54,843 nucleotides of DNA from an uncultured Paraprevotella sp. (lineage in GTDB: Bacteria > Bacteroidota > Bacteroidia > Bacteroidales > Bacteroidaceae): NCBI GenBank assembly GCA_947177395.1, contig CAMWUI010000017.1, positions 1-54,843 of the forward strand. The letters are read 5' to 3'. A program made the translations under genes and the position numbers. The notes under the pieces are model-generated. The model ran no database searches, was not told the origin of the DNA, and saw nothing but the letters and a program-made list of their open reading frames with translations. The stretch's first letter is position 1, and the number at the start of each line of letters is the position of its first letter. Positions 9,411-49,880 of the stretch are shown here, in pieces.

Positions 9411-9429
9411 GCGGAACCGCATTTGAAAT

Positions 9430-9484
9430 GCCATCCTTCCCGCTGGAATATTCCAAAGGGAGGGATGGCTTCTTTGTTTTTATT
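9430..9484 (+). terminator. Terminator after the C69 dipeptidase gene
   Basis: A 12-bp stem, GCCATCCTTCCC (9430-9441) with GGGAGGGATGGC (9458-9469) and one G-U pair, is followed by a T-rich tract to 9484. It sits between convergent genes and may serve only the plus-strand gene. Confidence 0.85.
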
Positions 9485-9498
9485 TCGGCTGTTCCGGT

Positions 9499-10674: not shown

Positions 10675-10797
10675 TACATGTTTTTATGCTGCAAAGGTCG
10701 GTATTTTCCGTAAACGAAACAATGCTTAATATTAGCCATTTTGATGGAAAAAAATGTTGTCTCTTGGATTTTTGGAGGCTTGTTCGGTAAAAAAGGT

Positions 10798-10805
10798 TAC
10801 TTTTG
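10798..10805 (+). promoter_or_regulatory. -7 box of the LuxR-type regulator gene
   Basis: TACTTTTG matches TAnnTTTG and lies 26 bp before the chosen ATG at 10832. It falls inside the upstream extension of the open frame, which supports the shorter start. The -33 match is poor. Confidence 0.5.
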
Positions 10806-10831
10806 CAGCTGTCTGTAACAAAAGAGTCGTC

Positions 10832-11599: not shown

Positions 11600-11660
11600 G
11601 CTGTTATAAATAATTAGGTAATATTCTGTCTCTTTTTCCTCGTCTATCGTTTTTTATTCT

Positions 11661-11668
11661 TATCTTTG
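11661..11668 (+). promoter_or_regulatory. -7 box of the phosphoglucomutase gene
   Basis: TATCTTTG is a full match to the -7 consensus, 47 bp before the ATG at 11716. T-rich sequence lies where the -33 element would be. Confidence 0.6.
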
Positions 11669-11715
11669 TAGGGTATTTAATGTAATTGAATTTTATTTTT
11701 TAACAGACAATAATT

Positions 11716-13473
11716 ATGGATAATGAATTGATTAAGGCTTGTGAGGCCAAGGCGCAGCAGTGGCTTTCTTCTTCCGTTTACGATGCCGCCACTCAGGCGG
11801 AAGTCCGTCAGATGCTGGAGGATGCGGATAAAACCGAACTGATAGAAGGATTTTACAAGAATCTCGAGTTTGGTACGGGAGGTCTGCGTGGAATCATGGG
11901 TGTGGGCACCAACCGTATGAATATCTATACAGTGGGCGCGGCCACTCAAGGACTGTCCAACTATCTAAACAAGAACTTCAAGGATATGGAGCTGATTTCC
12001 GTAGTAGTAGGACACGACTGCCGTAACAACAGTCGTCTCTTTGCGGAAGTTTCTGCCAATATATTTGCCGCAAACGGTATTAAAGTGTACCTGTTTGATG
12101 ATATGCGTCCTACACCCGAAATGTCTTTTGCCATCCGGCATTTGGGATGTCAGAGCGGTATTATCCTGACGGCGTCGCACAATCCGAAAGAGTACAACGG
12201 TTACAAGGCTTATTGGGATGACGGTGCGCAGGTGTTGGCACCGCATGACAAAGGAATCATAGACGAAGTGAATCTGGTGTCGGCCGAGGATATAAAGGGA
12301 TTGAATACGACGTTGGATGTCGCTAATCCGCTTATTCAGTTGATAGGAGAAGAAATCGACAAAATATATCTGGAGAAAATAAAGACGATTTCCATTGATC
12401 CGGAAGTTATCCGACGTCAAAAGGATATGAAGATTGTTTATACGCCGATTCATGGAACGGGAATGATGCTTATCCCGCGCTCCCTGAAGATGTGGGGCTT
12501 CGAGAATGTGCACACGGTGCCCGAACAGATGATAAAGGATGGTAACTTCCCGACAGTCGTTTCTCCCAATCCAGAAAATGCGGAAGCGTTGACAATGGCC
12601 ATTAATTTGGCTAAAGAGATTGATGCGGACATCGTGATGGCCTCCGATCCGGATGCGGACCGTGTGGGTATGGCATGCAAGAACAGTGCGGGGGAATGGG
12701 TGTTGGTGAATGGCAATCAGACCTGCATGCTTTTCCTTTATTATATCATCAAGAACCGTATCGCCACAGGAAAGATGAACGGTAATGAGTTTATCGTAAA
12801 GACAATTGTGACAACGGAGCTTATCAAAGCCATTGCTGATAAGAATAAAGTGGAGATGTTTGATTGTTATACCGGTTTTAAATGGATTGCCCGCGAGATT
12901 CGTTTGAATGAAGGAATCAAACAGTATATCGGTGGCGGAGAAGAATCATACGGTTTCCTGGCACAGGATTTCGTTCGTGACAAGGATGCGGTTTCCGCTT
13001 GCTCGCTGTTGGCGGAGATCTGTGCTTGGGCAAAGGATCAGGGTAAGACTTTGTTTGATGTCTTGATGGATATTTATCTGGAATACGGATTCTCGCTCAA
13101 TCATACGATTAATGTAGTGAAGCCAGGCAAGAGCGGTGCGGATGAAATCAAGGCTATGATGGAGAACTTCCGTGTGAATGCTCCGAAAGAGATTGCAGGT
13201 TCGCCCGTAGTTTTGACGAAAGACTATCTGACGCTGAAAGCTGTGGATGACAAAGGAAATGTTACGGATATCCTTCAGCCGGAGACTTCAAATGTTCTGC
13301 AATGGTATACGGCTGACGGCAGTAAGGTGAGTGTCCGTCCTTCCGGAACCGAACCGAAGATTAAGTTTTATCTTGAGATAGCCGGTGAAATGGCATGTCC
13401 GAAATGTTATACGGCTGTTAACAATGAAGCTATGGCCAAGGTGGATGCCATCAAGACTTCCTTAGGTTTGTAA
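11716..13473 (+). CDS. Phosphoglucomutase/phosphomannomutase (alpha-D-phosphohexomutase)
   Basis: Interconverts hexose 1- and 6-phosphates through a phosphoserine intermediate, linking glycolysis to nucleotide-sugar synthesis. At 585 residues it has the length of the PgcA-like group. All four domains are marked: the phosphoserine loop LTASHNPKEYNG with S154, the metal loop DPDADRVG, the sugar-specificity loop GGGEESYG, and the phosphate-binding loop RPSGTEPKIKF near the C-terminus. Glucose or mannose preference cannot be settled from sequence. It is monocistronic, with a promoter at 11661 and a terminator at 13498-13527. Confidence 0.94.
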   Translation: MDNELIKACEAKAQQWLSSSVYDAATQAEVRQMLEDADKTELIEGFYKNLEFGTGGLRGIMGVGTNRMNIYTVGAATQGLSNYLNKNFKDMELISVVVGHDCRNNSRLFAEVSANIFAANGIKVYLFDDMRPTPEMSFAIRHLGCQSGIILTASHNPKEYNGYKAYWDDGAQVLAPHDKGIIDEVNLVSAEDIKGLNTTLDVANPLIQLIGEEIDKIYLEKIKTISIDPEVIRRQKDMKIVYTPIHGTGMMLIPRSLKMWGFENVHTVPEQMIKDGNFPTVVSPNPENAEALTMAINLAKEIDADIVMASDPDADRVGMACKNSAGEWVLVNGNQTCMLFLYYIIKNRIATGKMNGNEFIVKTIVTTELIKAIADKNKVEMFDCYTGFKWIAREIRLNEGIKQYIGGGEESYGFLAQDFVRDKDAVSACSLLAEICAWAKDQGKTLFDVLMDIYLEYGFSLNHTINVVKPGKSGADEIKAMMENFRVNAPKEIAGSPVVLTKDYLTLKAVDDKGNVTDILQPETSNVLQWYTADGSKVSVRPSGTEPKIKFYLEIAGEMACPKCYTAVNNEAMAKVDAIKTSLGL

Positions 13474-13497
13474 TACGGACGTCGGTATGATATGCGT

Positions 13498-13527
13498 GCT
13501 CCTGGCTGCTACGGCCGGGAGCATTTT
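13498..13527 (+). terminator. Terminator after the phosphoglucomutase gene
   Basis: Stem GCTCCTGGC (13498-13506) with GCCGGGAGC (13514-13522), one G-U pair, 7-nt loop, followed by ATTTTTC. Confidence 0.85.
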
Positions 13528-13569
13528 TCAGTAATATAATAATCTCTATACCTTATTATAATTTATAGG

Positions 13570-14343
13570 ATGTTCTGGTTTGCTTTTAAAAGAAATGAGT
13601 TGCTGGTTGAACGAAAGCAGGATGGTTCTTATACCGTTCCAGATGATGATTCGTTTCCGATGGGAGAGGCAGAACCGGAAGCAATACATGGTTTTGCATC
13701 CTTCCATGGGGTATCCTGTAAGGCAGTCAGGATGGCGGAAAACGTGCCGGTCGGTATAGGGCAGGAATGGGTGGATTTGCGCTCCTTGTTCGATTTATTG
13801 CCACCGGAACTTTATCAGATGGCCGGTAAGGCTTCCGAGATTCTTTATTGGGACAGTCAGACGCAATTCTGCGGTGTGTGCGGTGCTCCGACGGTATGGC
13901 ATTCGGAAATCAGTAAGCAGTGTACTTCGTGCGGTCAGCTTCTTTGGCCTCAGTTGGCTACAGCCATTATCGTACTGGTAAGGCGTGGCGACAGCATACT
14001 TATGGTGCGTGCCCATAATTTCCGTGGCAGTTTCTACGGTCTTGTTGCCGGATTTGTGGAAACAGGGGAGTCTTTGGAAGAGTGTGTGCGTCGCGAAGTA
14101 TGGGAGGAAACTCGTGTCCGGGTGAAAAACATCCGTTATGTAGCCAGTCAGCCCTGGCCTTATCCCTGCGGACTGATGGTAGGTTTCTGCGCTGATTATG
14201 ATAGTGGCGATATACAATTGCAAAAAGAAGAACTGGTAACCGGAGGCTGGTTCGACCGTTCGGCTTTGCCCCAGTTGCCCGGCAAAGCTTCTTTAGCCCG
14301 GCAGTTGGTAGACTCTTGGTTGGCCGGTCGGTTGCCTGAGTAG
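13570..14343 (+). CDS. nudC: NAD(H) pyrophosphatase, NudC-like Nudix hydrolase
   Basis: Predicted to split NADH to NMNH and AMP; in other bacteria NudC also removes NAD caps from RNA. It has 257 residues. A zinc ribbon is formed by C101, C104, C118 and C121. The Nudix box runs from about G161 (GFVETGESLEECVRREVWEE). Downstream is SQPWPYPCGLMVGF, the NudC-specific SQPWPFPxS-type motif that separates this group from other Nudix enzymes. The N-terminal domain is diverged, as usual in the family. It follows the phosphoglucomutase terminator and is probably a separate unit, though no clear promoter was found. Confidence 0.9.
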   Translation: MFWFAFKRNELLVERKQDGSYTVPDDDSFPMGEAEPEAIHGFASFHGVSCKAVRMAENVPVGIGQEWVDLRSLFDLLPPELYQMAGKASEILYWDSQTQFCGVCGAPTVWHSEISKQCTSCGQLLWPQLATAIIVLVRRGDSILMVRAHNFRGSFYGLVAGFVETGESLEECVRREVWEETRVRVKNIRYVASQPWPYPCGLMVGFCADYDSGDIQLQKEELVTGGWFDRSALPQLPGKASLARQLVDSWLAGRLPE

Positions 14344-14398
14344 AAGTTTGCTTTTTCCGGTCTTTTAGGACGGTTGAGCAACTTTTCTTTTTCTCTTA

Positions 14399-14429
14399 TT
14401 TGCCGTCGTGTATTATTTTACTATTTTTG
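14399..14429 (+). promoter_or_regulatory. Promoter of the acidic-tailed hypothetical gene
   Basis: TTTG (14399-14402), 19-bp spacer, TATTTTTG (14422-14429): a textbook Bacteroides promoter. Transcription would start about 14434, some 24 nt before the ATG at 14458, and it rules out the longer open frame starting at 14374. Confidence 0.8.
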
Positions 14430-14457
14430 TGCGCGAATTCAACTAATAAGATTACGT

Positions 14458-15210
14458 ATGCAAAAGAATACTTACGGAATAGAATCGATTCTTGATTTAA
14501 ATGCCAATAATATTTGGGGGGTTGACGAACATGAGTTGGCAGAATTGTGGGGAAGGGAAATGAAAGAGGAAGGCTTTGCAAGTTCGGAGGATAAACTCCT
14601 GAATGTTATTCGTCTTGCCTTCGATGTGAATCATTTCAATAAGGATAATGAACGTGAGGCGGCTTTGTATAAAGATGGAGAATATGTGATTATCTCCCGC
14701 ACGGATGCCCGTAAGGGGAGTGTGGCGATACGTAAGAAAACAATCCGTCGCATAACAGATTTGTCGTATGAAAATATCAAACACATATCGGCGGAGGCTT
14801 TGCTGTCGCTTATCGAATGTAATTTTGGTGGTGGCTGGGATTCCATTTCTTTGGCTATTCGGGATATTATAGAATCAGGCTTTGATATAAGTACGACGAC
14901 ATTGCCGGCCACCCGTATTCATGCTGTGGGAGGAACGTTGGAGCGAAAGGTGAACGACGGGTACGACGTATTGGAAATACCGAAAGGAACATGGGTGGAA
15001 GCCATTTTTGCCAAGAAGAAAGAACCGCAGGAGAAGTTGCGGTTCATTCCGGAGCCTGAATACGATGAAGATGGAAACAGGCGTATCGTGGAAGAGGATA
15101 ATGTGAACGAGGATGAGGAAGATGACGAGAATAATGATGAGACATATTATGGAAGTTATACTCCCGAAGCGGAAGTGAAGGATGTGGATGAGGAACTTTC
15201 GGAAGAGTAA
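14458..15210 (+). CDS. Hypothetical protein with acidic C-terminal tail
   Basis: Not recognised. The 250-residue protein has no signal peptide or membrane segment. Residues 1 to about 190 look like a folded alpha/beta region, including GWDSISLAIRDIIESGFDIS. Residues 200-250 are very acidic, with long runs of E and D plus N (around EDEEDDENNDE). Such tails occur in nucleic-acid mimics, chaperones and proteins that bind basic partners, but nothing here decides between these. The start at 14458 is set by the strong promoter at 14399-14429. The symporter gene begins 12 bp after its stop, so it probably heads an operon with the symporter and the CyuA-like gene. Confidence 0.75.
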   Translation: MQKNTYGIESILDLNANNIWGVDEHELAELWGREMKEEGFASSEDKLLNVIRLAFDVNHFNKDNEREAALYKDGEYVIISRTDARKGSVAIRKKTIRRITDLSYENIKHISAEALLSLIECNFGGGWDSISLAIRDIIESGFDISTTTLPATRIHAVGGTLERKVNDGYDVLEIPKGTWVEAIFAKKKEPQEKLRFIPEPEYDEDGNRRIVEEDNVNEDEEDDENNDETYYGSYTPEAEVKDVDEELSEE

Positions 15211-15222
15211 ACGCTTTCTTGC

Positions 15223-16674
15223 ATGAGCAGATTTTATATTATGGGCACAGTATTGGCTTATTTCGGCCTGCTGTTGCTCATATCTTTTTTTACAGGGAAG
15301 AAATCCGATAATGAAGCTTTTTTTCGAGGGAATCGGCAATCACCTTGGTATCTGGTTGCTTTCGGCATGATCGGTGCGTCGTTATCGGGTGTGACATTTG
15401 TGTCTGTGCCCGGTATGGTGAGGACGGCCGGATTTACTTATTTGCAGACTTGTCTGGGATTTTTCTTTGGCTATCTGGTCGTGGCATACGTGCTTCTTCC
15501 CTTGTATTACAAACTGAATCTGACAAGCATCTATACCTTTCTGGGGATGCGGTTTGGAAAGACGTCCTACCGTACCGGAGCTTCTTTTTTCCTGTTAAGT
15601 AAATTGCTGGGAGCATCGGCACGTTTGTATCTGGTCTGTGTCATATTGCAGCAGTATTTGTTTGACCGAATGCATATTCCGTTTGTCGGAACGGTGGCAG
15701 GGGTACTGTTGTTGATATGGCTGTATACGAAACGCACCGGTATAAGAACCATCGTGTGGACGGACGCTTTGCAGACCTTTGCATTGTTGTCCGTTTTGTT
15801 TTTGTTGTTGGGACTGGTGGCGGATAAACTGGATTATTCGTTTGGTGAGGCGTTGAGAAAAGTGTGGGACAGTCCGTACAGCAGGGTTTTCGTATGGGAC
15901 GACTGGATGTCCCGCAATCATTTTGTGAAACAGTTCTTCAGCGGTATTTTCATAGTCGTTGTCATGACCGGTCTGGATCAGGATATGATGCAGAAGAATC
16001 TTACCTGCAGGACATTGAAAGAGGCGCAGCGCAACATGTGTTGCTATGGCATAGCTTTTTTGCCTGTGAATTTTCTGTTTTTGTCTTTGGGAGTAATGTT
16101 GGTCTGGTTGGCTTCTTCCATGAGTATGGAACTTCCGGCTGCGGGAGATGAGATTGTTCCCCTTTTCTGTACGGGAGGAAGTATGGGAACACCGGTGCTT
16201 CTGTTGTTTTGTATCGGAGTCATTGCTGCGGCTTTTTCAAGTGCCGATTCAGCTTTGACGGCCTTGACGACGACATGTTGTGTCGATTTGTTTGAAGAAC
16301 CGGAAAATGTCGTATTGCGCAAGCGGGTGCATGCTGTCATATCGTGCCTGTTCGTTGTTTGTATTCTGCTGTTCCGGTATTTTAATAACACCAGTTTGAT
16401 AGATGCCGTTTATGTGATAGCCTCTTACACATATGGGCCGCTATTGGGATTGTTCGCGTTCGGGCTTTATACCCGGCGTATGCCTCGGGAACGGTATGTG
16501 CCGGTTGTCACTTTATTGTCTCCCATACTTTGTTATGTGGTTTCGTTCTGTACGAAACATTATATGGGATATTCCTTTGGGTATGAATTGTTGATGTTCA
16601 ATGGCCTGTTGACATTCGGAGGTTTGTGGCTATTGTCTGTAAATAAATGTAGTTATGAGTTTGTCGAAGATTGA
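15223..16674 (+). CDS. Sodium:solute symporter (SSS family)
   Basis: Predicted Na+-coupled importer of 483 residues with about 13 membrane segments. Family marks are GKKSDNEAFFRGNRQSPWYL after the first segment, FGMIGASLSGVTFVSVPGMV in the second, and AAFSSADSALTALTT near residue 340, the usual sodium-binding serine-rich segment. The solute cannot be read from sequence. Its 3' end overlaps the CyuA-like desulfidase gene by 20 bp, so the two are translationally linked and the solute may be an amino acid or a sulphur compound; this is inference. Confidence 0.9.
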   Translation: MSRFYIMGTVLAYFGLLLLISFFTGKKSDNEAFFRGNRQSPWYLVAFGMIGASLSGVTFVSVPGMVRTAGFTYLQTCLGFFFGYLVVAYVLLPLYYKLNLTSIYTFLGMRFGKTSYRTGASFFLLSKLLGASARLYLVCVILQQYLFDRMHIPFVGTVAGVLLLIWLYTKRTGIRTIVWTDALQTFALLSVLFLLLGLVADKLDYSFGEALRKVWDSPYSRVFVWDDWMSRNHFVKQFFSGIFIVVVMTGLDQDMMQKNLTCRTLKEAQRNMCCYGIAFLPVNFLFLSLGVMLVWLASSMSMELPAAGDEIVPLFCTGGSMGTPVLLLFCIGVIAAAFSSADSALTALTTTCCVDLFEEPENVVLRKRVHAVISCLFVVCILLFRYFNNTSLIDAVYVIASYTYGPLLGLFAFGLYTRRMPRERYVPVVTLLSPILCYVVSFCTKHYMGYSFGYELLMFNGLLTFGGLWLLSVNKCSYEFVED

Positions 16675-17950
16675 AAGGGAAAGTATCATCCGCCTGATAA
16701 AACATCAGGTAGTTCCGGCTATAGGATGCACGGAACCTGTATGTGTGGCTCTCTGTGCCTCGAAAGCCACGGAGGCACTTGGGAGCGAACCGGTCGCATT
16801 GAAAGTATGGCTGAGTGCGAATATCCTGAAAAACGCCATGGGAGTGGGAATCCCCGGTACAGGAATGGTGGGCCTGCCCATCGCCGTGGCTTTGGGAGCT
16901 TTGGTCGGTAAGTCTGAATATCAGTTGGAAGTGTTGAAAGACTGCACACCGGCGGATGTGGAACGTGGACGGGCGTTTATAGACGAGCGTCGTATCCGAA
17001 TTGCTTTGAAAGAAGGAATTGAAGAGAAACTTTATGTTGAGGTGTGCGCAGAGTCAGCTTCGGGTGACGAGGCTGTGGCGGTGATAGCCGGTGAACATAC
17101 CCGTTTTGTCCGTGTTATCCGAAACGGAGAGGTTGTATGGCAAGACGAACATACTCGGAAAGAGGACAGCGAATGTCCGGATTGCAGTCTGACCTTGCGT
17201 AAGGTCTATGAGTTTGCCATGGAATCCCCGTTGGAAGAAATCTCTTTTATATTAGAAGCAAGAGATTTGAATAAAGCGGCGGCTCAAAAAGCATTGGAAG
17301 GCAGTTACGGACATGAATTGGGAAAGACGTTGAGTCGTCCGCTTGGACGGGGCATTCTGGGGCATACCATCTTTTCCCATATTCTTTCCAGCACCTCCTG
17401 TGCCTGTGACGCCCGTATGGCAGGAGCTATGATTCCGGTCATGAGTAATTCCGGAAGCGGCAACCAAGGCATTTGTGCGACCCTGCCGGTAGTGGTGTTT
17501 GCTGAGGAGAATCATAATACGGAAGAGGAACTGGTGCGGGGATTGATATTAAGTCATCTGACGGCTATTTATATTAAGCAGAGTCTGGGTGTGCTTTCAG
17601 CCTTGTGCGGTTGTGTTGTGGCGTCCACAGGTTCCAGTTGCGGTATTACGTATCTGATGGGAGGCGGTTATGAGCAGATTTCCTATGCGGTCAAAAATAT
17701 GATAGCCAATCTGACCGGCATGATCTGTGACGGTGCAAAGCCCAGTTGCGCATTGAAATTGACAAGCGGAGTATCTACGGCTGTCTTGTCGGCTATGCTG
17801 GCGATGCAGCAGAAGTGCGTTACCAGTGTGGAGGGCATTATTGACGATGACGTAGACCGCAGTATCCGTAATCTGACAAGTATCGGTGCGGAGGCGATGA
17901 ATGAAACAGACAAGAAAGTTTTGGAGATAATGACCCATAAGAGTTGTTAA
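16655..17950 (+). CDS. cyuA: L-cysteine desulfidase / serine dehydratase alpha-like protein (CyuA, UPF0597)
   Basis: Member of the CyuA/YhaM family, in which characterised enzymes use a 4Fe-4S cluster to convert L-cysteine to pyruvate, ammonia and sulphide. It has 431 residues. Conserved cysteines sit in GCTEPVCVALCAS near the N-terminus, SSTSCACDARMAG, and GNQGICATLPV; SGSGNQG is the family's glycine-rich motif. It is cytoplasmic. The start codon lies inside the symporter gene (20-bp overlap). The family is clear, but some members may act on serine or other amino acids, so cysteine as substrate is likely rather than shown. Confidence 0.87.
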   Translation: MSLSKIERESIIRLIKHQVVPAIGCTEPVCVALCASKATEALGSEPVALKVWLSANILKNAMGVGIPGTGMVGLPIAVALGALVGKSEYQLEVLKDCTPADVERGRAFIDERRIRIALKEGIEEKLYVEVCAESASGDEAVAVIAGEHTRFVRVIRNGEVVWQDEHTRKEDSECPDCSLTLRKVYEFAMESPLEEISFILEARDLNKAAAQKALEGSYGHELGKTLSRPLGRGILGHTIFSHILSSTSCACDARMAGAMIPVMSNSGSGNQGICATLPVVVFAEENHNTEEELVRGLILSHLTAIYIKQSLGVLSALCGCVVASTGSSCGITYLMGGGYEQISYAVKNMIANLTGMICDGAKPSCALKLTSGVSTAVLSAMLAMQQKCVTSVEGIIDDDVDRSIRNLTSIGAEAMNETDKKVLEIMTHKSC

Positions 17951-41571: not shown

Positions 41572-41983
41572 CGATTATTGTCACTCTTTTGCTTGATGCA
41601 ATAAATATGATAGAGGCTGTGGCGTAACGGAAGGTTACGTTACAGCCTCGCTCTTTTTTTATGGAACAGCGGATTTTGCAAGATGCCCGTTCACGAGCGT
41701 GCGGAAACACTTGTTCCTGTCGTTGGATGAAGGCGTAGAGTCATGGATAGAGCTGGTTACGGCGTGTGTACAGATGACTTCTGTAGTTGTCCACTGTCCG
41801 CGTCCTGGGGCGGCAACGTGTGGCTTTCCGAGTGAACAATTGTTTATTTCCCGAGTGGAGTGTTGTTCACTTGGGGTAGTGGAGTGCTGTTCACTTGGGC
41901 TGTGGAGTGCTGTTCACTTAGGGTAGTGGAGTGCTGTTCACTTGGGGTAGTGGAGCGCTGTCCACTTGGGCAGTGGAGTGTTG
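41572..41983. other. Intergenic region: terminator, unassigned stretch and 24-bp repeats
   Basis: Holds the kdgA terminator (41613-41660), about 190 bp with no recognisable gene, and the 24-bp array from 41854 on. The open frame 41699-41926 has a repeated VECCSLG unit that is only a translation of the array. Confidence 0.75.
41613..41660 (+). terminator. Terminator of the kdgK-kdgA operon
   Basis: A 16-bp stem GAGGCTGTGGCGTAAC (41613-41628) with GTTACGTTACAGCCTC (41634-41649), two G-U type pairs, followed by T7 at 41654-41660. Confidence 0.92.
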
Positions 41984-41990
41984 CTACAAT
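41854..41990. repeat. 24-bp tandem repeat array at the 3' end of the outer-membrane protein gene
   Basis: Six imperfect units starting at 41854, 41878, 41902, 41925, 41949 and 41972; the third and fifth are 23 bp and the last is partial. The core is agtggagtgctgttcact, itself an imperfect dyad (AGTGGA with TTCACT). The last unit covers the stop codon (41984-41986) of the minus-strand gene, so the array lies in its 3' untranslated end. A further AGTGAACA at 41831-41838 can pair with the TGTTCACT of any unit. Confidence 0.85.
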
Positions 41991-44701
41991 AATTTGAATC
42001 TTATTGTGCCGATGATGTTCCTGGGCCTTAGCTGCGAGGTTTGGGTGTAGATGTCCAGTCCACTGTAGTTGACACGGGTGTAGCGGCGCTGGTCGAAGAT
42101 ATTGTTCATTTGCAGTTCGAGGTCGACGTGCTTCAATTTCAGTTTGGCTGTGGCATCACCGAACCAGGCATGGCGGTTCTCGGTGGTCAGATTGTTATAG
42201 TTGTCCTCCACTGAGGCGGCAAGGGTGAGTTGCTTGGTCACATAGACATTCACTTTCAGTCGCTGGGAGGCCGATCGCACAGTCTGAGCCGGGTTGTCGA
42301 TGGATCCGTTGGTCTGGCTGATGTTCCATGAGTAGCCGCTGCTCAGCACGAAGTTGAGCCACGGCAGGGGTGTTATGGTGCCGCCTGCGCCGGCACTGGC
42401 GGAGCGCGAGTGGAAAGGGTAGACCGTGCCGCCGATGAGCCGTTCGCTGGTGGAGTAGCCGTAACCGCAGAAGGCACGGAGCGTGGACTGAAGCCAGTCG
42501 AAACCCTTGCTGCCGTCGAAACCGAGTTTATAGCTGTCAGCCTCCGTACGCCGGTCTACGGCCTGCACCACGCTCGTTGCACCCTCGTAGCTGGTGCCAT
42601 AGGTTTGGTTGTCGCGGGTGTGACTGTAGCTGCCGTTGAGGCGGAGGAAGGTGGCGGTGAGCGAACTGCGGTAGCCGATGCTGGCTCCGGCCCCCATGCG
42701 GTCGGTTTCGGACAGTTGCTCCACGTAGGAACGCTGGAACGAACGGTAGTTGTTCATAATATATCCGCTATAGATGCCGCCGGGGTCGCCCACTGTCTTT
42801 GAGTAGTTGGCGCTGACATTGGCTGTCCAGTCGCACCACTCATAGTTGGCCGAGACGTTGGGCGTGACAAGCAGGTGGACATAGCTGTGCTTGTCTTCGC
42901 GGATGCGGTCGTCAAGGGTCTGTGTGTAGAGGTTCAGCGGACAGCCCAACGACAGTCGCCAATGGCCTTGTACGAATTTATAGTGCTGTCCGATAACCAC
43001 TTCATAGGTATTGTACCAAAGGTCGTTGCGCAATGAATGGTTGCCCGCCTCGAAACCGTCGAGGTCTGTCTCTATGCCGTGCAGACTGGCATGTGCCATC
43101 ACGCCGTAGTTCAGCGTGAACGCTCCGAAGCGGAAGTCATAGTTCGTGTGGAGGTTGCCTGCGATGTGGCGTGAGGTCACGTCCTGCCGGTAGCCGGTCG
43201 ATGTGCCCTCTTGCAGAGAGTCTATATCGACGGCGAGCGTGTTCGGGCGTTGCGAGTAGCCTGCGGAGAAGTGAAGGTCGAGCGTGTGCCTGCCTATGTT
43301 GCGGATGGTGTTGAACGTGTTTGAGACGGAGAGTCGAGGGCGGTCGAAATGCTGGCGCACACGTTCGTCTCCATAACCCATGGGAGCGGTTCCAGTGCGT
43401 TCGGACGAAAGCAGTCCTTCCACGTGGTCGCTGTTCCAATGGGTGTCGAATTTCAGCACATTGGCCACGAAGCCGTTGGGTGCGTTCCAGTTGTAGCGCG
43501 CCTGGACATTCAGATTGTTTATTTTTGTTTCGCTGGTCATGGTCTCAGACGTGAGCAGTCTGCTGTTGTCGCCCGTAAAATGGTCGCTCTCACTGCTACC
43601 TTCGCAGCGGATACGGTCGTTGTAGTAGGCTATATTCAGACCAGCCTCCGTGTCCGTGAAAAGTTTCTCTAGGTGATTCATGGTCAGAATATGGGAATGG
43701 TTGTCGAATGTGCGCTGCTGCGGAAGACCGGAACCGCCGGGCATGACGGCATCCGTGGGGCAGAAGGGGTAGAGGTTGACACTGTTGATGCTGGAATAGT
43801 GCTGTGTCAGTTCTTTCGACACGTCGTTACCCGTGTTGTTGCCCTTATACAGTGTCATGTTCTGCCGCCGCTTGGCGAAGTACATGCTCACGGCCTCGGC
43901 AGTCCAGAGCGGGTTCTTGCCGATGGTGTTCTGTCCGTCGGATAACGGATGCGGGCCGAAGCCCCAGCCGCCGGACCGTTGTATGCCGCCGCCCAACATG
44001 GTGTTGACGGCTAATGTCCCTTTCGCCGAGTTCTTCAGTTTCAGGTTAATTGCCACGTCGTTAGTCAGCGTCTTCCCTTGCAGGGCTTTCACGGGCTGGT
44101 GGTTCTCCAGCACCTGCACAGTGGCCACGTCCTGTGCGTTGATGTTGTTCGTGGCCAGTCCGTAGCGGCCTTGCAGCAAGTCCATCTCCTCCACGTAGAA
44201 CTTCTTGATGGCTTTACCGTTGTATTTGATGCCGCCATTGTCGGACACCTCGATACCCGGCATCCGCTTCAGCACATCGGCAATCACGCGGTCGCCCTGC
44301 TGCTGATAGGCTCCGACGAGGTAGTTGAGCGTGTCTCCGCTCTGCCGTATCTTCTGCGCACGAACGGCCACTTCCTTCAGTTTTACCGATTCTTCCTTTA
44401 CGCTGAAGTTGAGCCTTTGGGAACGGTTCGCAATCACTTTGGCCATCTGTCCGATGTTCATTCCTGCTGCAGTCACGGTGAGCGAATCGGTTTTGCTCTG
44501 GATTTCCAGTTTGTATTCCCCCTTGCTATTCGTATTGGCAGAGGCAATTATGATACCTGTCTCTTTCTGTGATACCATCACATACGCATCCACAGCCTTG
44601 CCCTGTGCGCCGAGCACTGTCCCCTCGATTATGGTCTGTGCAAGCGACAGGGTGCAAGCCGCGGTGAAAACGGCAACCAACGCAATTACTCTCTTCATCA
44701 T
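41984..44701 (-). CDS. Outer-membrane plug-and-barrel protein with carboxypeptidase-regulatory-like domain (TonB-receptor-like)
   Basis: A 905-residue protein. Signal peptide 1-21 (ALVAVFTAACTLSLAQ), carboxypeptidase-regulatory-like beta domain about 22-100 (IEGTVLGAQGKAVDAYVMVS), plug-like domain about 105-215 (SGDTLNYLVGAYQQQGDRVI, LKRMPGIEVSDNGGIKYNGK), and a long beta barrel to the C-terminus (GTIRFKLL). The N-terminal domain order fits the large barrel proteins commonly found beside GLPGLI genes in Bacteroidota. Start: ATG 44701, or ATG 44698. Third gene after the promoter at 46399, 66 bp after the GLPGLI gene. A 24-bp array meets its stop codon. Cargo unknown. Confidence 0.9.
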   Translation of the reverse strand: MMKRVIALVAVFTAACTLSLAQTIIEGTVLGAQGKAVDAYVMVSQKETGIIIASANTNSKGEYKLEIQSKTDSLTVTAAGMNIGQMAKVIANRSQRLNFSVKEESVKLKEVAVRAQKIRQSGDTLNYLVGAYQQQGDRVIADVLKRMPGIEVSDNGGIKYNGKAIKKFYVEEMDLLQGRYGLATNNINAQDVATVQVLENHQPVKALQGKTLTNDVAINLKLKNSAKGTLAVNTMLGGGIQRSGGWGFGPHPLSDGQNTIGKNPLWTAEAVSMYFAKRRQNMTLYKGNNTGNDVSKELTQHYSSINSVNLYPFCPTDAVMPGGSGLPQQRTFDNHSHILTMNHLEKLFTDTEAGLNIAYYNDRIRCEGSSESDHFTGDNSRLLTSETMTSETKINNLNVQARYNWNAPNGFVANVLKFDTHWNSDHVEGLLSSERTGTAPMGYGDERVRQHFDRPRLSVSNTFNTIRNIGRHTLDLHFSAGYSQRPNTLAVDIDSLQEGTSTGYRQDVTSRHIAGNLHTNYDFRFGAFTLNYGVMAHASLHGIETDLDGFEAGNHSLRNDLWYNTYEVVIGQHYKFVQGHWRLSLGCPLNLYTQTLDDRIREDKHSYVHLLVTPNVSANYEWCDWTANVSANYSKTVGDPGGIYSGYIMNNYRSFQRSYVEQLSETDRMGAGASIGYRSSLTATFLRLNGSYSHTRDNQTYGTSYEGATSVVQAVDRRTEADSYKLGFDGSKGFDWLQSTLRAFCGYGYSTSERLIGGTVYPFHSRSASAGAGGTITPLPWLNFVLSSGYSWNISQTNGSIDNPAQTVRSASQRLKVNVYVTKQLTLAASVEDNYNNLTTENRHAWFGDATAKLKLKHVDLELQMNNIFDQRRYTRVNYSGLDIYTQTSQLRPRNIIGTIRFKLL

Positions 44702-44767
44702 GATATCACTCTTTCTCCAGCAGCCCGTACGGTTTGTCAGGAATTTCTGTTGACTGTATTTCTGTAG

Positions 44768-45730
44768 TTATTCCAATTCTATAGGATTGTAAGGCGTATA
44801 TATCGATACGGCTTCCCCTACAACCATATTTCCGGCGGCATCCATTGATGCCTTGTGATAGTCCGCAGCCTTAAACCAGTTCTCATTGAATGTCTTTTGC
44901 AGTTTCCACACTTTCTCACGGGTGGAGCTGCGGTAGTTCTTGAAGTCGTACTTGGAAATGGGGAATGGCCTTGACGATATTTGCACAGCCTCGAAACGAT
45001 AGACCCCATCCGTATCTTGCAGTTTTAGTATGAGGCCTGGCAAACCGCCGAACTTCCACGGGCCGGCCTGTACGGGGATGTCAGGTGCGAACCATGCCAC
45101 GAAGTCACGACCTCGCCAGTGGCAACTGGCTTTCTGGCACTGGTGACCGAGTATTGTCTGTCTCTCAGGCTCTATTTTCCACTGCTGCAAAGGATATGGC
45201 TCCGTGTACCAGGAATTGTATTTATCCAAATATCGTGGCATTGTGGCATACTCCGTCAACCTGCCGTTTGAGATGAAGAGATCAGAGCATTCATATTCAC
45301 TCCACGTCCCATAATTCTTACCTCCATTACCAAGGAAGTTGGGGACTGAACTTGCTCCGGGGTGGGCTTTTAGCCATGCTGCCTTCAAAGAGTCGGACCG
45401 GAAGTAGAAGTCGCTGTAATACTTTGTCACGTGCTTTCCTATGTCTAAGCGTTGTTGGTCGATATAGGTGTTCTCATCCTTTATATCGTCGGCATTGAAG
45501 GCATACCAGATCCGGATGCGTGTCGTGTCTACGACAGTCATTTTGCCCGCCTTCCTGTGAATCGGAATGGGACAATGGGCGTTTTTGGGTTGTGCCCAGA
45601 CAGCGCAACATGCCAGATTCATTATGAAGCAGACGATAAAGGGTTTCTGTTTCAATTGTCGTTTTACTATATCTGCGGATACAGTCATGGCTTGCGGGCA
45701 TAAAGATGCCAGCGGGAAAGTGCGTTTCAT
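44768..45730 (-). CDS. GLPGLI family protein, exported
   Basis: Member of the Bacteroidota GLPGLI family (function unknown), 320 residues. The signature is PWKFGGLPGLILKLQDTDGV near residue 225. Two possible starts: ATG 45730, or ATG 45688 (MTVSADIVKR), where the export segment (FIVCFIMNLACCAVWAQ) would be nearer the N-terminus. Other features are GHQCQKASCHWRGRDFVAWF and a repeated W/Y-rich pattern. In related genomes these genes very often sit beside a barrel gene like the one downstream, so the two probably work together. It lies 40 bp after the lipocalin-like gene and is likely in the same transcript. Confidence 0.88.
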   Translation of the reverse strand: MKRTFPLASLCPQAMTVSADIVKRQLKQKPFIVCFIMNLACCAVWAQPKNAHCPIPIHRKAGKMTVVDTTRIRIWYAFNADDIKDENTYIDQQRLDIGKHVTKYYSDFYFRSDSLKAAWLKAHPGASSVPNFLGNGGKNYGTWSEYECSDLFISNGRLTEYATMPRYLDKYNSWYTEPYPLQQWKIEPERQTILGHQCQKASCHWRGRDFVAWFAPDIPVQAGPWKFGGLPGLILKLQDTDGVYRFEAVQISSRPFPISKYDFKNYRSSTREKVWKLQKTFNENWFKAADYHKASMDAAGNMVVGEAVSIYTPYNPIELE

Positions 45731-45770
45731 AAAGATAATGGTTTTAGAGGTTAAAAAGGAGTCGTGGAAT

Positions 45771-46298
45771 TTATTTTGAAGTATGATTCTTCATGATATA
45801 CCTTTCCATCAGTTTCTGTATATCCTCGGGGGATTCCTGGGCCGCTTTGCATTTTTCCAAAATATGGCGTGTGAGTTTCTCCGGCATATCCGTAACTTTC
45901 TTCCACTCGTCATAACGGTTCTGCCAACGGCCTTTGAAGGTGGTCTTGCTTGTCATTTTTATCAGATCCGTTGCGTCGCGCCCCATTTCGATGTATTTCC
46001 CGTTCTTGAAAGAATATGTCCCGTATTCATGCGGATAGATGACATAGCGTCCTTTTCTGTCCCTGATAATCTCCGCACAGGCATATGCGCCGTCAGCACA
46101 ATAGATCTTAACCTGATTGTAGCTGTCACAGATGTAGTTACGGTCTTCACCATCGTATTTGAACGATGTCATTATCCATACCCCTATGATGTCCTTGTCC
46201 GTAACCTTCTGCTGTGCCATGGTCCTGCCGGGGCACAGCAACGCAAGGAACATGACCGACAGGAATACTGCGATTCCCTTTACATAATTCTTTTTCAT
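45771..46298 (-). CDS. Small exported lipocalin-like protein
   Basis: A 175-residue protein with a signal peptide (GIAVFLSVMFLALLCPGRTM, then AQQ). The mature part looks lipocalin-like: IIGVWIMTSFKYDGEDRN, VKIYCADGAYACAEIIRD, GTYSFKNGKYIEMG, KTTFKGRWQNRYDEW. It then ends in a basic helix (KLTRHILEKCKAAQESPEDI). The core pattern is close to that of the sensor domain of the regulator encoded upstream (46515-47543). A related DUF such as DUF4488 is possible. First gene of the operon driven by the promoter at 46399-46429. The ligand is unknown. Confidence 0.78.
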   Translation of the reverse strand: MKKNYVKGIAVFLSVMFLALLCPGRTMAQQKVTDKDIIGVWIMTSFKYDGEDRNYICDSYNQVKIYCADGAYACAEIIRDRKGRYVIYPHEYGTYSFKNGKYIEMGRDATDLIKMTSKTTFKGRWQNRYDEWKKVTDMPEKLTRHILEKCKAAQESPEDIQKLMERYIMKNHTSK

Positions 46299-46314
46299 TA
46301 CTGAGTGTTTTTAT

Positions 46315-46342
46315 GGTCGGTCCTCTTGTCTGCGGACCAACC
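46315..46342 (-). promoter_or_regulatory. Hairpin in the 5' leader of the lipocalin-GLPGLI-barrel operon
   Basis: On the minus strand GGTTGGTCC pairs with GGACCGACC (one G-U), loop 10 nt, ending 16 bp before the ATG at 46298. No T-run follows, so it is not a terminator. It may affect translation of the first gene. Confidence 0.5.
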
Positions 46343-46398
46343 GGATTATCAATACGATTTCCATGTCTGGTGTGACCGTGCCAGAAGGATTTCGATAG

Positions 46399-46429
46399 CA
46401 AAGATAGGAGGATGCTTGTATGTGCTCAA
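46399..46429 (-). promoter_or_regulatory. Promoter of the lipocalin-GLPGLI-barrel operon
   Basis: On the minus strand: TTG (46427-46429), 20-bp spacer, TATCTTTG (46399-46406), a full consensus match. Transcription would start near 46394, giving a leader of about 95 nt with the hairpin at 46315-46342. It lies 85 bp after the stop codon of the regulator gene. Confidence 0.8.
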
Positions 46430-46437
46430 GAAAAGTT

Positions 46438-46500
46438 GTTTGCATTTATTTGGCAAATGATTCGACAAGGTTCCCCAGCGTTTGCATTTGGTTTGCAAAC
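46438..46500. promoter_or_regulatory. Paired 21-bp palindromes upstream of the promoter (probable activator sites)
   Basis: Site 1 at 46480-46500 is GTTTGCA-N7-TGCAAAC, perfect in its 7-bp arms. Site 2 at 46438-46458 is a weaker copy, TTTGC-N9-GCAAA after the first base. The two starts are exactly 42 bp apart, four turns of DNA, so both would face the same side. Site 2 lies 8 bp upstream of the -33 element; the centres are near -54 and -96. Confidence 0.65.
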
Positions 46501-46514
46501 GTAGAGTAATTCAT

Positions 46515-47543
46515 TTATAGTGAGCGGATAAAATCGTCCCAGTCCTTACTGCTGCCTTTCTTGCCAAAGACCTTCATGTACAATCTGCTTCGGATGCTGC
46601 TGATGCTGCTTTTATCCTTGCAAAGCACGTTGGCCATCTCGGACGGAGTGGCGTTCAGCTTTAGTAGCAGGCATACCCGAAACTCAATTGCCGACATATT
46701 GCAAAGCGTGAGCAAGGTGTTTGTAAAACGCGGATAGACACTTCTGAGCCTCTCTTCGATATCATGCCAGTCGTCTTTGGTGAAGCACTCGCCATGGCTG
46801 ATCTTCTTACGAATCCAGATGTAAAAATCGCTCTTGCGGAACTCCTCCTCTACGGTGTTCAGTGCCTCGCGTACGGTTGCGGGGAGTGTCTGTCGTTCCT
46901 GTTCTATCAGCCGGAGTTCCTGTTCGACGCGCTTCTTGCGGCTGTGGAGATGATGCAGGTAGTTGGCCGTCATCATCAGCATGAATATCAGGCACAGCAG
47001 GACATACATCAAGGTGTGATTGGAAACCTGCAGTTCCCGTTCTGCATTCGAGAATACGTATCTGCGGGAATAGTCCACTCCGTCATTCTTCTCGCTGCGG
47101 ATAATATTGACAATTTCCTTCAACCTTTGCTCCTCGAAATCATAGGTTCGCTTCCATGTGCGCTGGACACCCGTTTCCTGAATCATTATCGACGTGTCGC
47201 TGTTTATGACAAACGGATGTGCCGAGCCTTCCTGTAGATAAACAATTTCGTCCTTGCCTTTCCTGACCAGAGTATATTGTTCCGTTTTGCCGGCAATGAA
47301 CATAGTGCCGGTGGGAGCTATTATCAATTGGCATTCATACAAACAGCTGTCATCGTAGACGCGCAACCATCCTATATCGTTTTTCGGATAGTCGACCTTG
47401 CTGCTATCCGAAAATACCATGTAATCCAAAACCCATGGGCCATTGACAGTAAAATCCTCTTGCTTCTTTGTCAGCGAACAAGAGAACAGCGTAATGGCCA
47501 TGGTTGCAAGCAGAAGAAACGGAAGAACAGACTGTCTTTGCAT
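46515..47543 (-). CDS. Membrane-spanning transcriptional regulator: lipocalin-like sensor, membrane helix, coiled coil, helix-turn-helix
   Basis: A 342-residue one-protein sensor-regulator. Residues 1-21 are a signal-like segment ending in a lipobox (ITLFSC, C22). Residues about 30-135 are beta-rich and lipocalin-like (GPWVLDYMVFSDSSK, LRVYDDSCLYECQLIIAP). A membrane helix is at about 177-197 (LMYVLLCLIFMLMMTANYLH), a basic coiled coil at about 200-235 (SRKKRVEQELRLIEQERQTL), and a C-terminal DNA-binding region at about 275-342 (MSAIEFRVCLLLKLNATPSE, MANVLCKDKSSISSIRSRLY). The C-terminal part resembles the region that follows TPR sensors in other Bacteroidota regulators. Its own promoter is at 47569-47600. 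It most likely controls the three genes downstream. Confidence 0.85.
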   Translation of the reverse strand: MQRQSVLPFLLLATMAITLFSCSLTKKQEDFTVNGPWVLDYMVFSDSSKVDYPKNDIGWLRVYDDSCLYECQLIIAPTGTMFIAGKTEQYTLVRKGKDEIVYLQEGSAHPFVINSDTSIMIQETGVQRTWKRTYDFEEQRLKEIVNIIRSEKNDGVDYSRRYVFSNAERELQVSNHTLMYVLLCLIFMLMMTANYLHHLHSRKKRVEQELRLIEQERQTLPATVREALNTVEEEFRKSDFYIWIRKKISHGECFTKDDWHDIEERLRSVYPRFTNTLLTLCNMSAIEFRVCLLLKLNATPSEMANVLCKDKSSISSIRSRLYMKVFGKKGSSKDWDDFIRSL

Positions 47544-47568
47544 ATCAGCGATAGATTTTATATCACAT

Positions 47569-47600
47569 CAAAGGTAATGTTTTCGTCCGATATGTACAAA
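47569..47600 (-). promoter_or_regulatory. Promoter of the membrane-spanning regulator gene
   Basis: On the minus strand: TTTG (47597-47600), 20-bp spacer, TACCTTTG (47569-47576), a full match. Transcription would begin near 47564, leaving about 20 nt before the ATG. Confidence 0.8.
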
Positions 47601-47793: not shown

Positions 47794-48852
47794 TTATTCA
47801 GCCAGTTTCTCCGCTATCATGTTTGCCAGTTCTTCTCCTCTCAACTTCTTGGCGATGATGGTGCCGTCCTGATCGATCAGCAATGTGAAAGGAATGCTGT
47901 TGATGGCATACAGCTTTTTCACCGTGTTTTCCCATCCGTTCAGTTCCGAAGCCTGGGGCCAAGTCATGCCCATACGCTGGATGGCATCCTTCCAACTGGT
48001 TTCATTCTGATCGAAAGATATACCTATGATTTCGAGCCCTTTGTCATGATACTCTTTATATACTTCCACCACGTTGGGCATTTCGGCCATGCAGGGACCA
48101 CACCAGCTGGCCCAGCAGTCAATCAGCGTAAGCTTGTTTTCCTTTACCACTTGTGAGAGAGTCAGCTCGTTTCCGTTTATGTCCGTGACGGTAAAGTCGA
48201 TGATTTTGTTTCCGGCTTCGGTGACCAGCTGGGCTTTCTGCTCTTCTTCTATGGACACGATGATGGGCTGGTTTCTATAGGTGTCAGGCATGCTTTCAAT
48301 GATCTGCAGGCATTCTCCCGGCGTCATGTCGCCATAGTGGATAAGGAACACGACAAAACCGGCGGCCTTGTCGGCATTCTCGGTGATGGTGCGGCGGGCG
48401 ATGTCAGTGATCTGTTTGTTTACTTCTTCGATTTTGGAACCCATGCCCTCCGATTCATACAGGTTTCTCATTTCCTTTGCGAGGGGAGCGATCTCATCCG
48501 AATATTTCTGATAAATATCGTTGTTCTTCGTGCCGCCTACATGTTCTGTTTCGGCGACTTTTATCTGAATGGTGCCCGGTTCGATGAAGAAAAAACCTTG
48601 ATGTTGCTGTTTGTCGTTGCTGTACATGTAAGCGCAGAAGAGCGTGCTGTCAGCCGTGCCCTCCATCTTGAATGTGTTGCCCTCCAGACGGAGTGTGTCG
48701 GATGGAACGAATTGTCCGTTTTCAAACTTGGCGATGATGATGGAGTCGCCGTCCTGGGCTCCTTCGATTTCACCTTGCAGCTTAAAGCTGTTCTTTTGGC
48801 AGGAAGCAAAAAAAGTTGCGCATGCCAGCAGCAGGAATGAGATTTTTTTCAT
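47794..48852 (-). CDS. TlpA-like thiol-disulfide oxidoreductase lipoprotein with DUF4369 domain
   Basis: A 352-residue lipoprotein. Signal with lipobox (LLLACATFFASC, C18). The N-terminal half is a DUF4369-type beta domain (FKLQGEIEGAQDGDSIIIAK). The C-terminal half is a thioredoxin fold with the redox pair WCGPC near residues 248-252 (DCWASWCGPCMAEMPNVVEV) and IPFTLLIDQDGTIIAKKLRG. It should reduce or exchange disulfides of envelope proteins. The frame runs open to 49320 across prs, but this is a shadow; ATG 48852 gives the lipoprotein signal. Confidence 0.93.
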   Translation of the reverse strand: MKKISFLLLACATFFASCQKNSFKLQGEIEGAQDGDSIIIAKFENGQFVPSDTLRLEGNTFKMEGTADSTLFCAYMYSNDKQQHQGFFFIEPGTIQIKVAETEHVGGTKNNDIYQKYSDEIAPLAKEMRNLYESEGMGSKIEEVNKQITDIARRTITENADKAAGFVVFLIHYGDMTPGECLQIIESMPDTYRNQPIIVSIEEEQKAQLVTEAGNKIIDFTVTDINGNELTLSQVVKENKLTLIDCWASWCGPCMAEMPNVVEVYKEYHDKGLEIIGISFDQNETSWKDAIQRMGMTWPQASELNGWENTVKKLYAINSIPFTLLIDQDGTIIAKKLRGEELANMIAEKLAE

Positions 48853-48880
48853 GTGATAAAACTGAATAAGATAAATTATG

Positions 48881-48924
48881 AAAGACTGTTGTCCGGCATT
48901 TCTTTTGTCGGGACAACAGTCTTT
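48881..48924 (-). terminator. Terminator of prs
   Basis: Perfect 14-bp stem AAAGACTGTTGTCC (48881-48894) with GGACAACAGTCTTT (48911-48924), about 15 bp after the prs stop codon on the minus strand. Confidence 0.85.
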
Positions 48925-48938
48925 ATCGGTTCCGGATA

Positions 48939-49880
48939 TTAAATAAGGTATTGCGAACTGATGGATTTGTTGCTTTCTACGCGCCGGATAGTTTCCGCAA
49001 TCAGTTCCGCAATGCTCAGTTGCTTCACTTTGGCACAGCGGTTGGAGTAGGGGATACTGTCGGTGAAGACCATTTCTTCCAGCGCACTTTCCTGTATCCG
49101 TTCGGAAGCCGGGCCGGACATGACGCAATGCGAGGCTATGGCACGTACGGAGACAGCGCCTTTCTCTTTCATCAGGTTGGCGGCCTTGGTAATGGTTCCG
49201 GCCGTATCCACCATGTCGTCGACGAGAATGACGTTGGCGTTTTTCACATCGCCGATGATTTGCATGCTGCCGACTTCGTTCGGTTTGCTGCGTGTCTTGT
49301 TGCACAGGACGAGCGGACAATTCAAGTATTTGGCATAAGTGTTGGCTCTCTTGGAACCTCCCACGTCAGGGGTGGCTATTACCAGATTTTCCAGATTCAA
49401 TGATTGGATATAAGGCAACAGGACACTGGATGCATACAAATGGTCGACCGGAACATTGAAGAATCCCTGCTCCTGGTCGGCATGCAGGTCCATCGTTATA
49501 AGTCGGTCGATGCCTGCCACGCTCATCATGTCCGCTACCAGTTTGGCACCGATGGAGACACGAGGCTTGTCTTTACGGTCCTGCCGGGCCCAGCCGAAAT
49601 AAGGAACAACGGCGTTTATGCTTTTGGCCGATGCCCGTTTGGCTGCGTCAATCATCAGGAGCAGTTCCATCAGGTTGTCCGAATTGGGAAATGTCGATTG
49701 TACGAGGAATACATCGCGTCCGCGGATGGATTCTTCATACGAGACTGAGAATTCACCGTCGGCAAAATGGGTTATGACCAGATTGCCCAGCGGACATCCT
49801 AAGCTGGCGCATATTTTCTCTGCCAGGTAGCGTGATTTGGTTCCCGAAAAAACCATGAAAGAATTAGAATCGCTCATCAT
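48939..49880 (-). CDS. prs: Ribose-phosphate pyrophosphokinase (PRPP synthetase)
   Basis: Makes PRPP from ribose 5-phosphate and ATP for purines, pyrimidines, histidine and NAD; NadC encoded in this window uses PRPP. It has 313 residues. Signatures: GNLVITHFADGEFSVSYEES, PYFGWARQDRKDKPRVSIGA, ITMDLHADQEQGFF, and the PRPP loop VILVDDMVDTAGTITKAA. Start at 49880 or the second methionine at 49877. Confidence 0.97.
   Translation of the reverse strand: MMSDSNSFMVFSGTKSRYLAEKICASLGCPLGNLVITHFADGEFSVSYEESIRGRDVFLVQSTFPNSDNLMELLLMIDAAKRASAKSINAVVPYFGWARQDRKDKPRVSIGAKLVADMMSVAGIDRLITMDLHADQEQGFFNVPVDHLYASSVLLPYIQSLNLENLVIATPDVGGSKRANTYAKYLNCPLVLCNKTRSKPNEVGSMQIIGDVKNANVILVDDMVDTAGTITKAANLMKEKGAVSVRAIASHCVMSGPASERIQESALEEMVFTDSIPYSNRCAKVKQLSIAELIAETIRRVESNKSISSQYLI

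Follow-up and report, generated by a model that had tools for sequence, protein, structure and literature searches.

The window analysed here is a stretch of 54,843 nucleotides from an uncultured Paraprevotella sp. (assembly GCA_947177395.1, contig CAMWUI010000017.1), and corresponds to contig C17 of a 2.65-Mb genome. On its minus strand four genes follow each other head to tail, in the order REG (46515-47543), LIP (45771-46298), GLPGLI (44768-45730) and BAR (41984-44701), coding respectively for a predicted membrane-spanning regulator, a small lipocalin-like protein, a GLPGLI family protein and a protein of the outer-membrane plug-and-barrel type. On the coding strand, REG and LIP are separated by 216 bp, LIP and the GLPGLI gene by 40 bp, and the GLPGLI gene and BAR by 66 bp; a search of the minus strand of the four-gene region, including the REG-LIP gap, found no terminator-like site. 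An earlier interpretation made from the DNA alone (the sequence-only reading) had described a regulator, a lipocalin-like, a GLPGLI and a barrel gene in this order and on the same strand, and all four open reading frames (ORFs) are present as placed. The features of the locus are as follows.

46515..47543, minus strand: REG, 342 amino acids, with lipoprotein-type signal, predicted periplasmic lipocalin-like domain, membrane helix and cytoplasmic part ending in a putative helix-turn-helix (ORF, full-length homologues in relatives, hydropathy)
47478..47543, minus strand: REG signal region, ending in the lipobox-like Cys22 (conserved Cys column)
47028..47468, minus strand: predicted REG periplasmic sensor domain, approximately residues 26-172, homologous to LIP (hhalign)
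46950..47012, minus strand: predicted REG internal membrane helix, approximately residues 178-198 (hydropathy above 1.6)
46569..46715, minus strand: putative REG helix-turn-helix, approximately residues 277-325 (conservation, weak DUF6377 and HTH_38 matches)
46480..46499, minus strand: candidate distal operator pair, half-sites at an 11-bp period (repeat and half-site search)
46438..46457, minus strand: candidate proximal operator pair, at a distance of 9 bp from the TTG of the -33 box (repeat, conserved spacing)
46399..46429, minus strand: predicted Bacteroidetes-type promoter, with TTG at 46427-46429, a 20-bp spacer and TATCTTTG at 46399-46406 (pattern match 46399-46455)
45771..46298, minus strand: LIP, 175 amino acids, lipocalin-like, probably secreted and related to the REG sensor (ORF, profile comparison, Pfam matches)
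44768..45730, minus strand: GLPGLI family protein, 320 amino acids, true start possibly internal (TIGR01200, E = 6e-42)
41984..44701, minus strand: BAR, 905 amino acids, outer-membrane plug-and-barrel type, CarboxypepD_reg-like start (Pfam, alignments to relatives)

The core conserved unit at this locus is the REG-LIP pair together with the LIP promoter, and the two proteins of the pair are kin. Comparison of the REG sensor with LIP by hhalign gave a probability of homology of 98.1% (E = 8.6e-14; 96.6% in the other comparison), and the LIP of the window was also matched by some REGs in plain BLAST (L208, E = 1e-9). The sequence-only reading had claimed a membrane-spanning regulator with a lipocalin sensor, followed by a small lipocalin-like protein; the homology of the REG periplasmic domain to the product of the next gene bears this out. 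Hydropathy places hydrophobic segments of REG at residues 4-25 and 171-199, and a segment resembling the internal membrane helix is present in all 46 aligned REG members. In two REG alignments the most conserved block lies after the membrane helix, and by its pattern we read it as a helix-turn-helix; the library matches in this family were weak: with E allowed up to 0.1, DUF6377 was matched by 12 of 46 members (lowest E = 0.0064), and HTH_38 was matched by 3 of 46.

The matches of LIP to described families were likewise weak: DUF4488 was matched by 4 of 39 LIP members (best E = 5e-5) and Lipocalin_4 by 9 of 39 (best E = 6e-4), with the LIP of the window remaining below the Pfam cut-offs for both (17.3 vs. 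27 bits and 18.0 vs. 22.4 bits, respectively). When PDB was searched with REG and LIP, both as single sequences and as profiles, hits were at chance level or absent, and for the profiles no chain scored better than E = 0.27. A membrane-like segment after residue 30 was found in none of the 39 LIP members. Three alignment columns of LIP, corresponding to residues 56 (Ile in the window), 74 and 150, hold a Cys in 34, 37 and 38 of the 39 members, and these cysteines could form a disulphide. In addition, LIP is more conserved than the REG sensor (mean identity 56% vs. 40%).

REG was present, at E up to 1e-40, in 74 of the 301 genomes of the family; outside the family but within the order, 5 of 24 genomes gave matches, which were weak and confined to the C-terminal part. 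It should be noted that the genomes are mostly metagenome assemblies, and therefore that cut contigs hide neighbours. From a scan of named genomes, the best 80 of 149 loci encoding a REG relative were kept (the 80-locus set); they belong to Prevotella, Paraprevotella and other Bacteroidales, many of them, according to their titles, from samples of rumen or other herbivore gut. A tree of 87 REG sequences (84 different, the near-duplicates L079, L089, L090, L147, L149 and L152 having been removed beforehand) splits with full support into two sides of 58 and 29 rows, here called clade A and clade B. A LIP gene lies within 3 kb downstream of REG in 56 of the 56 uncut clade A loci and near REG in none of the 27 uncut clade B loci, two rows of each clade being cut (those of clade A by contig ends). 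The Cys22 column holds a Cys in 55 of the 58 clade A sequences and in 11 of the 29 from clade B; clade A REGs also have a Cys at residue 71 (51/58). In clade B, at 23 of 28 loci the nearest following gene on the same strand that codes for 150 amino acids or more falls into one of three clusters; six cluster members were scanned, and these are thioredoxin-like (Redoxin or AhpC-TSA, some with DUF4369). Upstream of REG in the window, on the same strand, there is a DUF4369/AhpC-TSA thioredoxin-like gene (47794-49320), of the kind that usually adjoins the REGs of clade B. The genome of the window contains another REG-LIP pair, likewise provided with a site and promoter, on contig C20 (L056, G000:C20:1-17000, 6230-7927); there the proximal half-sites belong to the GCC type instead of the GCA type.

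The gap between REG and LIP contains two 20-bp repeats, 46438-46457 and 46480-46499, which are 85% alike and of a kind conserved in relatives. For their study, 54 REG-LIP gaps were extracted, none being taken where the end of LIP was more than 1.6 kb from REG or no start was found, and 46 non-redundant gaps remained after nine duplicate or near-duplicate loci and exclusions were left out. Half-sites of the form TTTGCM/KGCAAA occur 2.54 times per 100 bp in these 46 gaps; in 384 intergenic stretches elsewhere in these loci the figure is 0.48. The promoter pattern TTG-N17-22-TAnnTTTG was recognised in 42 of the 46 gaps, with a spacer of 20 in 36 gaps, of 19 in three, of 21 in two and of 22 in one; it was not recognised in the gaps of L065, L077, L081 and L135. 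Of the 42 gaps with a promoter, 35 have the end of a strict half-site pair 9 bp before the TTG, three have it at 10 bp and one at 7 bp, and three have no such pair. Sites placed so constantly, immediately upstream of the -33 box, are suited to an activator. Two predictions of the sequence-only reading, probable operator sites and a promoter shared by LIP, GLPGLI and BAR, are thus matched by two conserved repeats upstream of LIP and by one recognisable promoter for the three genes.

Pairs of half-sites were also counted around REG, after five identical or near-identical loci had been dropped. Within 300 bp after REG, they were found at 71 of 81 loci (47/54 in clade A, 24/27 in clade B) and at only 4 of 682 control places. 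Pairs also precede REG at 38 of 52 clade A loci, as would be expected for autoregulation.

As a search pattern for whole genomes, the half-site pair alone (TGCMAA-N5-TGCMAA) was tried and given up. In the genome of the window it gave eight matches, against none for the control; three of these lay at the two REG-LIP loci, and for the other five (four of them viewed with their flanks) no promoter was seen by eye in the expected place. The combined site-plus-promoter pattern was therefore used. It occurs at 61 places in 40 of the 301 genomes (reversed control pattern: 0 of 301), and REG is present in 39 of these 40 genomes, compared with 35 of the 261 genomes without the pattern (Fisher P ~3e-27, a value that does not count independent events, since the species are related). 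Of the 61 places, 50 have a listed REG within 2.5 kb, and only two belong to the genome of the window, one in the window itself and one on contig C20, each with a REG on one side and a LIP on the other. Among the other 11, one in genome G008 precedes LIP-GLP-GLP-BAR (GLP, GLPGLI gene) and, of those examined further, four (L193, L196, L199, L200) precede thioredoxin-like genes and one (L198) a barrel gene.

A near-identical site-plus-promoter precedes the same kind of operon in three genomes (L193, L194, L195), with no REG beside it. At L193 this operon includes a DUF4369/AhpC-TSA gene, and its third gene codes for a Reg_prop/Y_Y_Y-type protein. These sites are possibly trans targets, or targets of another regulator.

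The product of the third gene is, from its match to TIGR01200 (143.9 bits vs. a cut-off of 50) and to Pfam Porph_ging (E = 7e-9), assigned with certainty to the GLPGLI family. This protein also passes the Pfam cut-off for PNGase_F-II_N (29.8 vs. 27.6 bits), hinting at a fold common to it and to this glycosidase N-terminal domain. BAR may be one of the TonB-dependent receptor-like barrel proteins: its N-terminus is CarboxypepD_reg-like, just under the Pfam cut-off (28.4 vs. 32.3 bits), and parts of its residues ~100-250, taken as the plug region, align with many ORFs of about 1000 amino acids at ~20-32% identity. Directly downstream of the BAR stop codon there is a 24-bp tandem repeat of 5.4 copies (41854-41980).

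The sequence-only reading had proposed that the four genes form one module and that the GLPGLI-barrel pair has a dedicated sensor, and these two claims fared differently. When the four-gene order was searched in relatives, GLPGLI or BAR was found near only 2 of the 47 REG-LIP loci of the 80-locus set, and in the stretch examined neither was present at the other 45. A fixed four-gene module was therefore rejected for most relatives, by the very test that the sequence-only reading had set for itself, and GLPGLI-BAR is an optional cargo of REG-LIP. GLPGLI proteins occur in 60 of 151 family genomes and in 4 of the 18 genomes of the genus, and relatives of BAR, accompanied by GLPGLI, were found at 67-69% identity to BAR in G003, G004 (where BAR has an in-frame stop) and G008, and at 59% in G036. 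In G003 and G004, which are two of the four genomes of the genus with GLPGLI, and in G036, no match to REG or LIP and no site-plus-promoter was found. In G008, contig C23 reads operator-LIP-GLP-GLP-BAR, and contig C61 a REG split over two frames, then a site and the start of another barrel-type gene; the ends of the two contigs showed no overlap that would link them. In G010, REG-LIP has been retained together with the final 200 residues of BAR, and in G017 the N-terminal part of REG adjoins the BAR tail in a decayed copy of the locus (L066, 8680-9710); from these remnants, REG and BAR were probably neighbours there too.

The regulatory link, on the other hand, recurs with divergent GLPGLI and BAR genes. 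L204 reads REG-LIP-GLP-GLP-BAR, with the site-plus-promoter pattern before LIP; L214 reads REG-LIP-(118 amino acids)-GLP-BAR-GLP-GLP-BAR; L211 and L213 read REG-GLP-GLP-BAR, and L212 REG-GLP-BAR. At L211-L213, variant sites (TGCAAG half-sites with a period of 11 bp, identified by eye) are found in front of the GLPGLI gene's own promoter. L215 has REG, sites, a thioredoxin-like gene of 637 amino acids, BAR and ten GLPGLI genes in a row (8201-16865), and GLPGLI or BAR is near REG also in L065, L116, L151, L153 and L099. L211-L215 are not among the sequences of the REG tree; judged from a strong match to the LIP profile, the REGs of four of these loci (L211-L213, L215) resemble clade B. Across the 151 genomes, at least 7 REG loci have a GLPGLI match no more than 9 kb away, compared with at most 0.91 expected (P ~5e-5); three of them (L211-L213) are alike, and therefore the independent events are fewer than 7. 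Taken as a whole, then, the regulator, promoter, sites and recurrent linkage of REG to GLPGLI-barrel genes, also in other genera, held, and the fixed module did not.

We consider it probable that REG is a one-component, membrane-spanning regulator that activates the LIP promoter through the paired sites, and that LIP feeds back on REG. In this mechanism a periplasmic signal would be bound by the N-terminal lipocalin-like domain of REG and change the protein, whose helix-turn-helix would be on the cytoplasmic side. From the membrane, REG would bind the pairs of TTTGCA/TGCAAA half-sites, which lie one helical turn apart and ~9 bp upstream of the -33 box, and would recruit RNA polymerase, acting as an activator rather than a repressor of the LIP promoter. 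GLPGLI and BAR would follow LIP in one transcript in this genome. Secreted LIP might then bind the same small hydrophobic ligand, or REG itself, closing the feedback, and GLPGLI and BAR might act on the same ligand at the outer membrane; the sequence-only reading had supposed that they export or import it.

Several observations weigh against this mechanism. The helix-turn-helix of REG and the lipocalin fold are predicted from weak library matches. The strict downstream pair is missing at 10 of 81 REG loci, and at L214 the 24 bp that separate REG from LIP contain no site. Pairs before REG occur at only 1 of 28 clade B loci, and the REG of the window has no upstream pair, so autoregulation is not universal. 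The strict site-plus-promoter pattern is missing in 35 of the 74 genomes with REG, and 11 of its 61 places are away from any listed REG, including one in a genome that lacks REG (G232), which does not resemble a true site. As RNA, the repeats of the window form hairpins as well (-18.4 kcal/mol, z -2.1), and they may have a role at that level. In the three clade B loci tested (L113 11015-11060, L123 10945-10985, L145 10930-10970), the hairpin formed by the distal pair is strong (-16.2 to -18.4 kcal/mol) and has a run of T after it, so that the pair may double as a terminator there. Finally, in a comparison of distances LIP correlates with the REG sensor (partial r 0.42) no more strongly than with the cytoplasmic half (0.45), a result that is uninformative in itself and gives no sign of a special contact between LIP and the sensor.

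Among other explanations, a serious one, even if we lean against it, is that LIP serves solely as an effector that scavenges the ligand, and that REG senses the ligand by itself; the domain common to the two proteins would then reflect a common ligand and no contact. This would account for the clade B REGs that have no LIP nearby, for the fact that most clade A loci have LIP as the gene directly after the sites, and for its better conservation relative to the sensor. Alone, however, it leaves unexplained the constant adjacency of LIP to REG while the other cargo changes freely.

It is rather doubtful that LIP is instead the obligate periplasmic partner of REG, the two forming a ligand-holding heterodimer that is, as a whole, the sensor, as VtrC does for VtrA; in the VtrA/VtrC superfamily such a heterodimer binds a lipid or bile acid. 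The same logic is found in VtrA/VtrC and ToxR/ToxS, where a membrane-tethered transcription factor and an adjacent small lipocalin-like periplasmic protein sense small hydrophobic molecules (PMC9214523). The unbroken association of LIP with clade A REGs would agree with it, as would the cysteines conserved in LIP and at residue 71 of clade A REGs. Against it stand the clade B REGs without LIP and the distance comparison, together with the fact that LIP mostly has its own promoter and sites rather than an overlapping reading frame.

That GLPGLI-BAR stands beside REG-LIP by chance, with a promoter of its own, appears unlikely. G003 and G004 indeed carry the two genes without REG, LIP or a site-plus-promoter that could be found, and most REG-LIP loci have neither; but chance neighbours would hardly explain the excess of REG loci close to GLPGLI, even if some of these are close relatives and so not independent, or the variant sites directly before the GLPGLI gene at L211-L213. 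Least of all do we favour the repeats being a REG terminator or the site of another regulator, with REG not acting on the operon: the hairpins and T-runs of the three clade B loci and the pattern without an adjacent REG, as at L193 beside a Reg_prop/Y_Y_Y-type protein, could be taken that way, but the window has no terminator-like site between REG and LIP, the pairs precede REG itself in most clade A loci and other genes elsewhere, and nearly all pattern-positive genomes have REG.

No role for the GLPGLI proteins was found in the open-access literature. Published data on GLPGLI regulation, as far as the available parts of the sources go, concern PhoP targets in Riemerella (PMC9603813) and two genes in the PG0720 table in Porphyromonas (PMC8757827); the GLPGLI family member (TIGR01200, Porph_ging) of the window differs in being tied to a linked regulator and site. 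REG (74 of the 301 genomes), with its recognisable site, offers a handle on when some GLPGLI genes are switched on, and a way to the signal. In the open-access literature that we found, and partly consulted, on GLPGLI, DUF6377, DUF4488, Porph_ging, co-component systems and lipocalin- or TPR-type regulators of Bacteroides and Prevotella, REG-LIP is not described.

Transmembrane transcription regulators (TTRs) are enriched in Bacteroidota, and those of the genus Bacteroides are mostly (~72%) of hybrid two-component types (PMC10269533, as available to us in part). REG would share with the one-component TTRs its membrane-spanning and, as predicted, DNA-binding nature. In the portions of this survey that were accessible, lipocalins are mentioned solely as the partner proteins of co-component systems, and no family like REG-LIP appears (PMC10269533).

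The closest parallel is with these co-component systems. Both VtrA/VtrC and REG-LIP combine a tethered factor with an adjacent small periplasmic partner, and yet the domain order is reversed: in the VtrA/VtrC type, the helix-turn-helix is N-terminal and the periplasmic domain C-terminal, whereas REG has signal and sensor first and its putative helix-turn-helix last. The LIP profile matched no PDB chain at E up to 10, and the chains searched presumably included the VtrC structures. Given the reversed order and the absence of any sequence relation found, REG-LIP was not placed in the VtrA/VtrC co-component superfamily. In the main text of the paper describing co-component systems no word begins with Bacteroid, and its Table 1 marks with asterisks the many partner genes that overlap that of their regulator (PMC9214523), unlike LIP. 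Tentatively, and with more doubt than conviction, we would suggest that Prevotellaceae evolved a large family of membrane-spanning lipocalin-type sensors independently of the enteric VtrA/VtrC and ToxR/ToxS line, that one clade pairs the sensor with LIP, a secreted relative of the sensor that the regulator itself controls, and that GLPGLI-barrel and thioredoxin-like cargo was recruited repeatedly, which would provide the GLPGLI proteins with a signal and a dedicated regulator; the conserved cysteines of LIP and REG and the thioredoxin-like cargo of clade B would fit a periplasmic, thiol- or redox-linked ligand. REG-LIP also suggests that the pairing of a membrane-spanning regulator with a lipocalin-like periplasmic protein arose outside the enteric bacteria where it was described. 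REG-LIP may be regarded as analogous, rather than demonstrably homologous, to VtrA/VtrC, and is set apart from both VtrA/VtrC and ToxR/ToxS by a partner that has no membrane-like segment after residue 30 and by a regulator whose own sensor is homologous to that partner.

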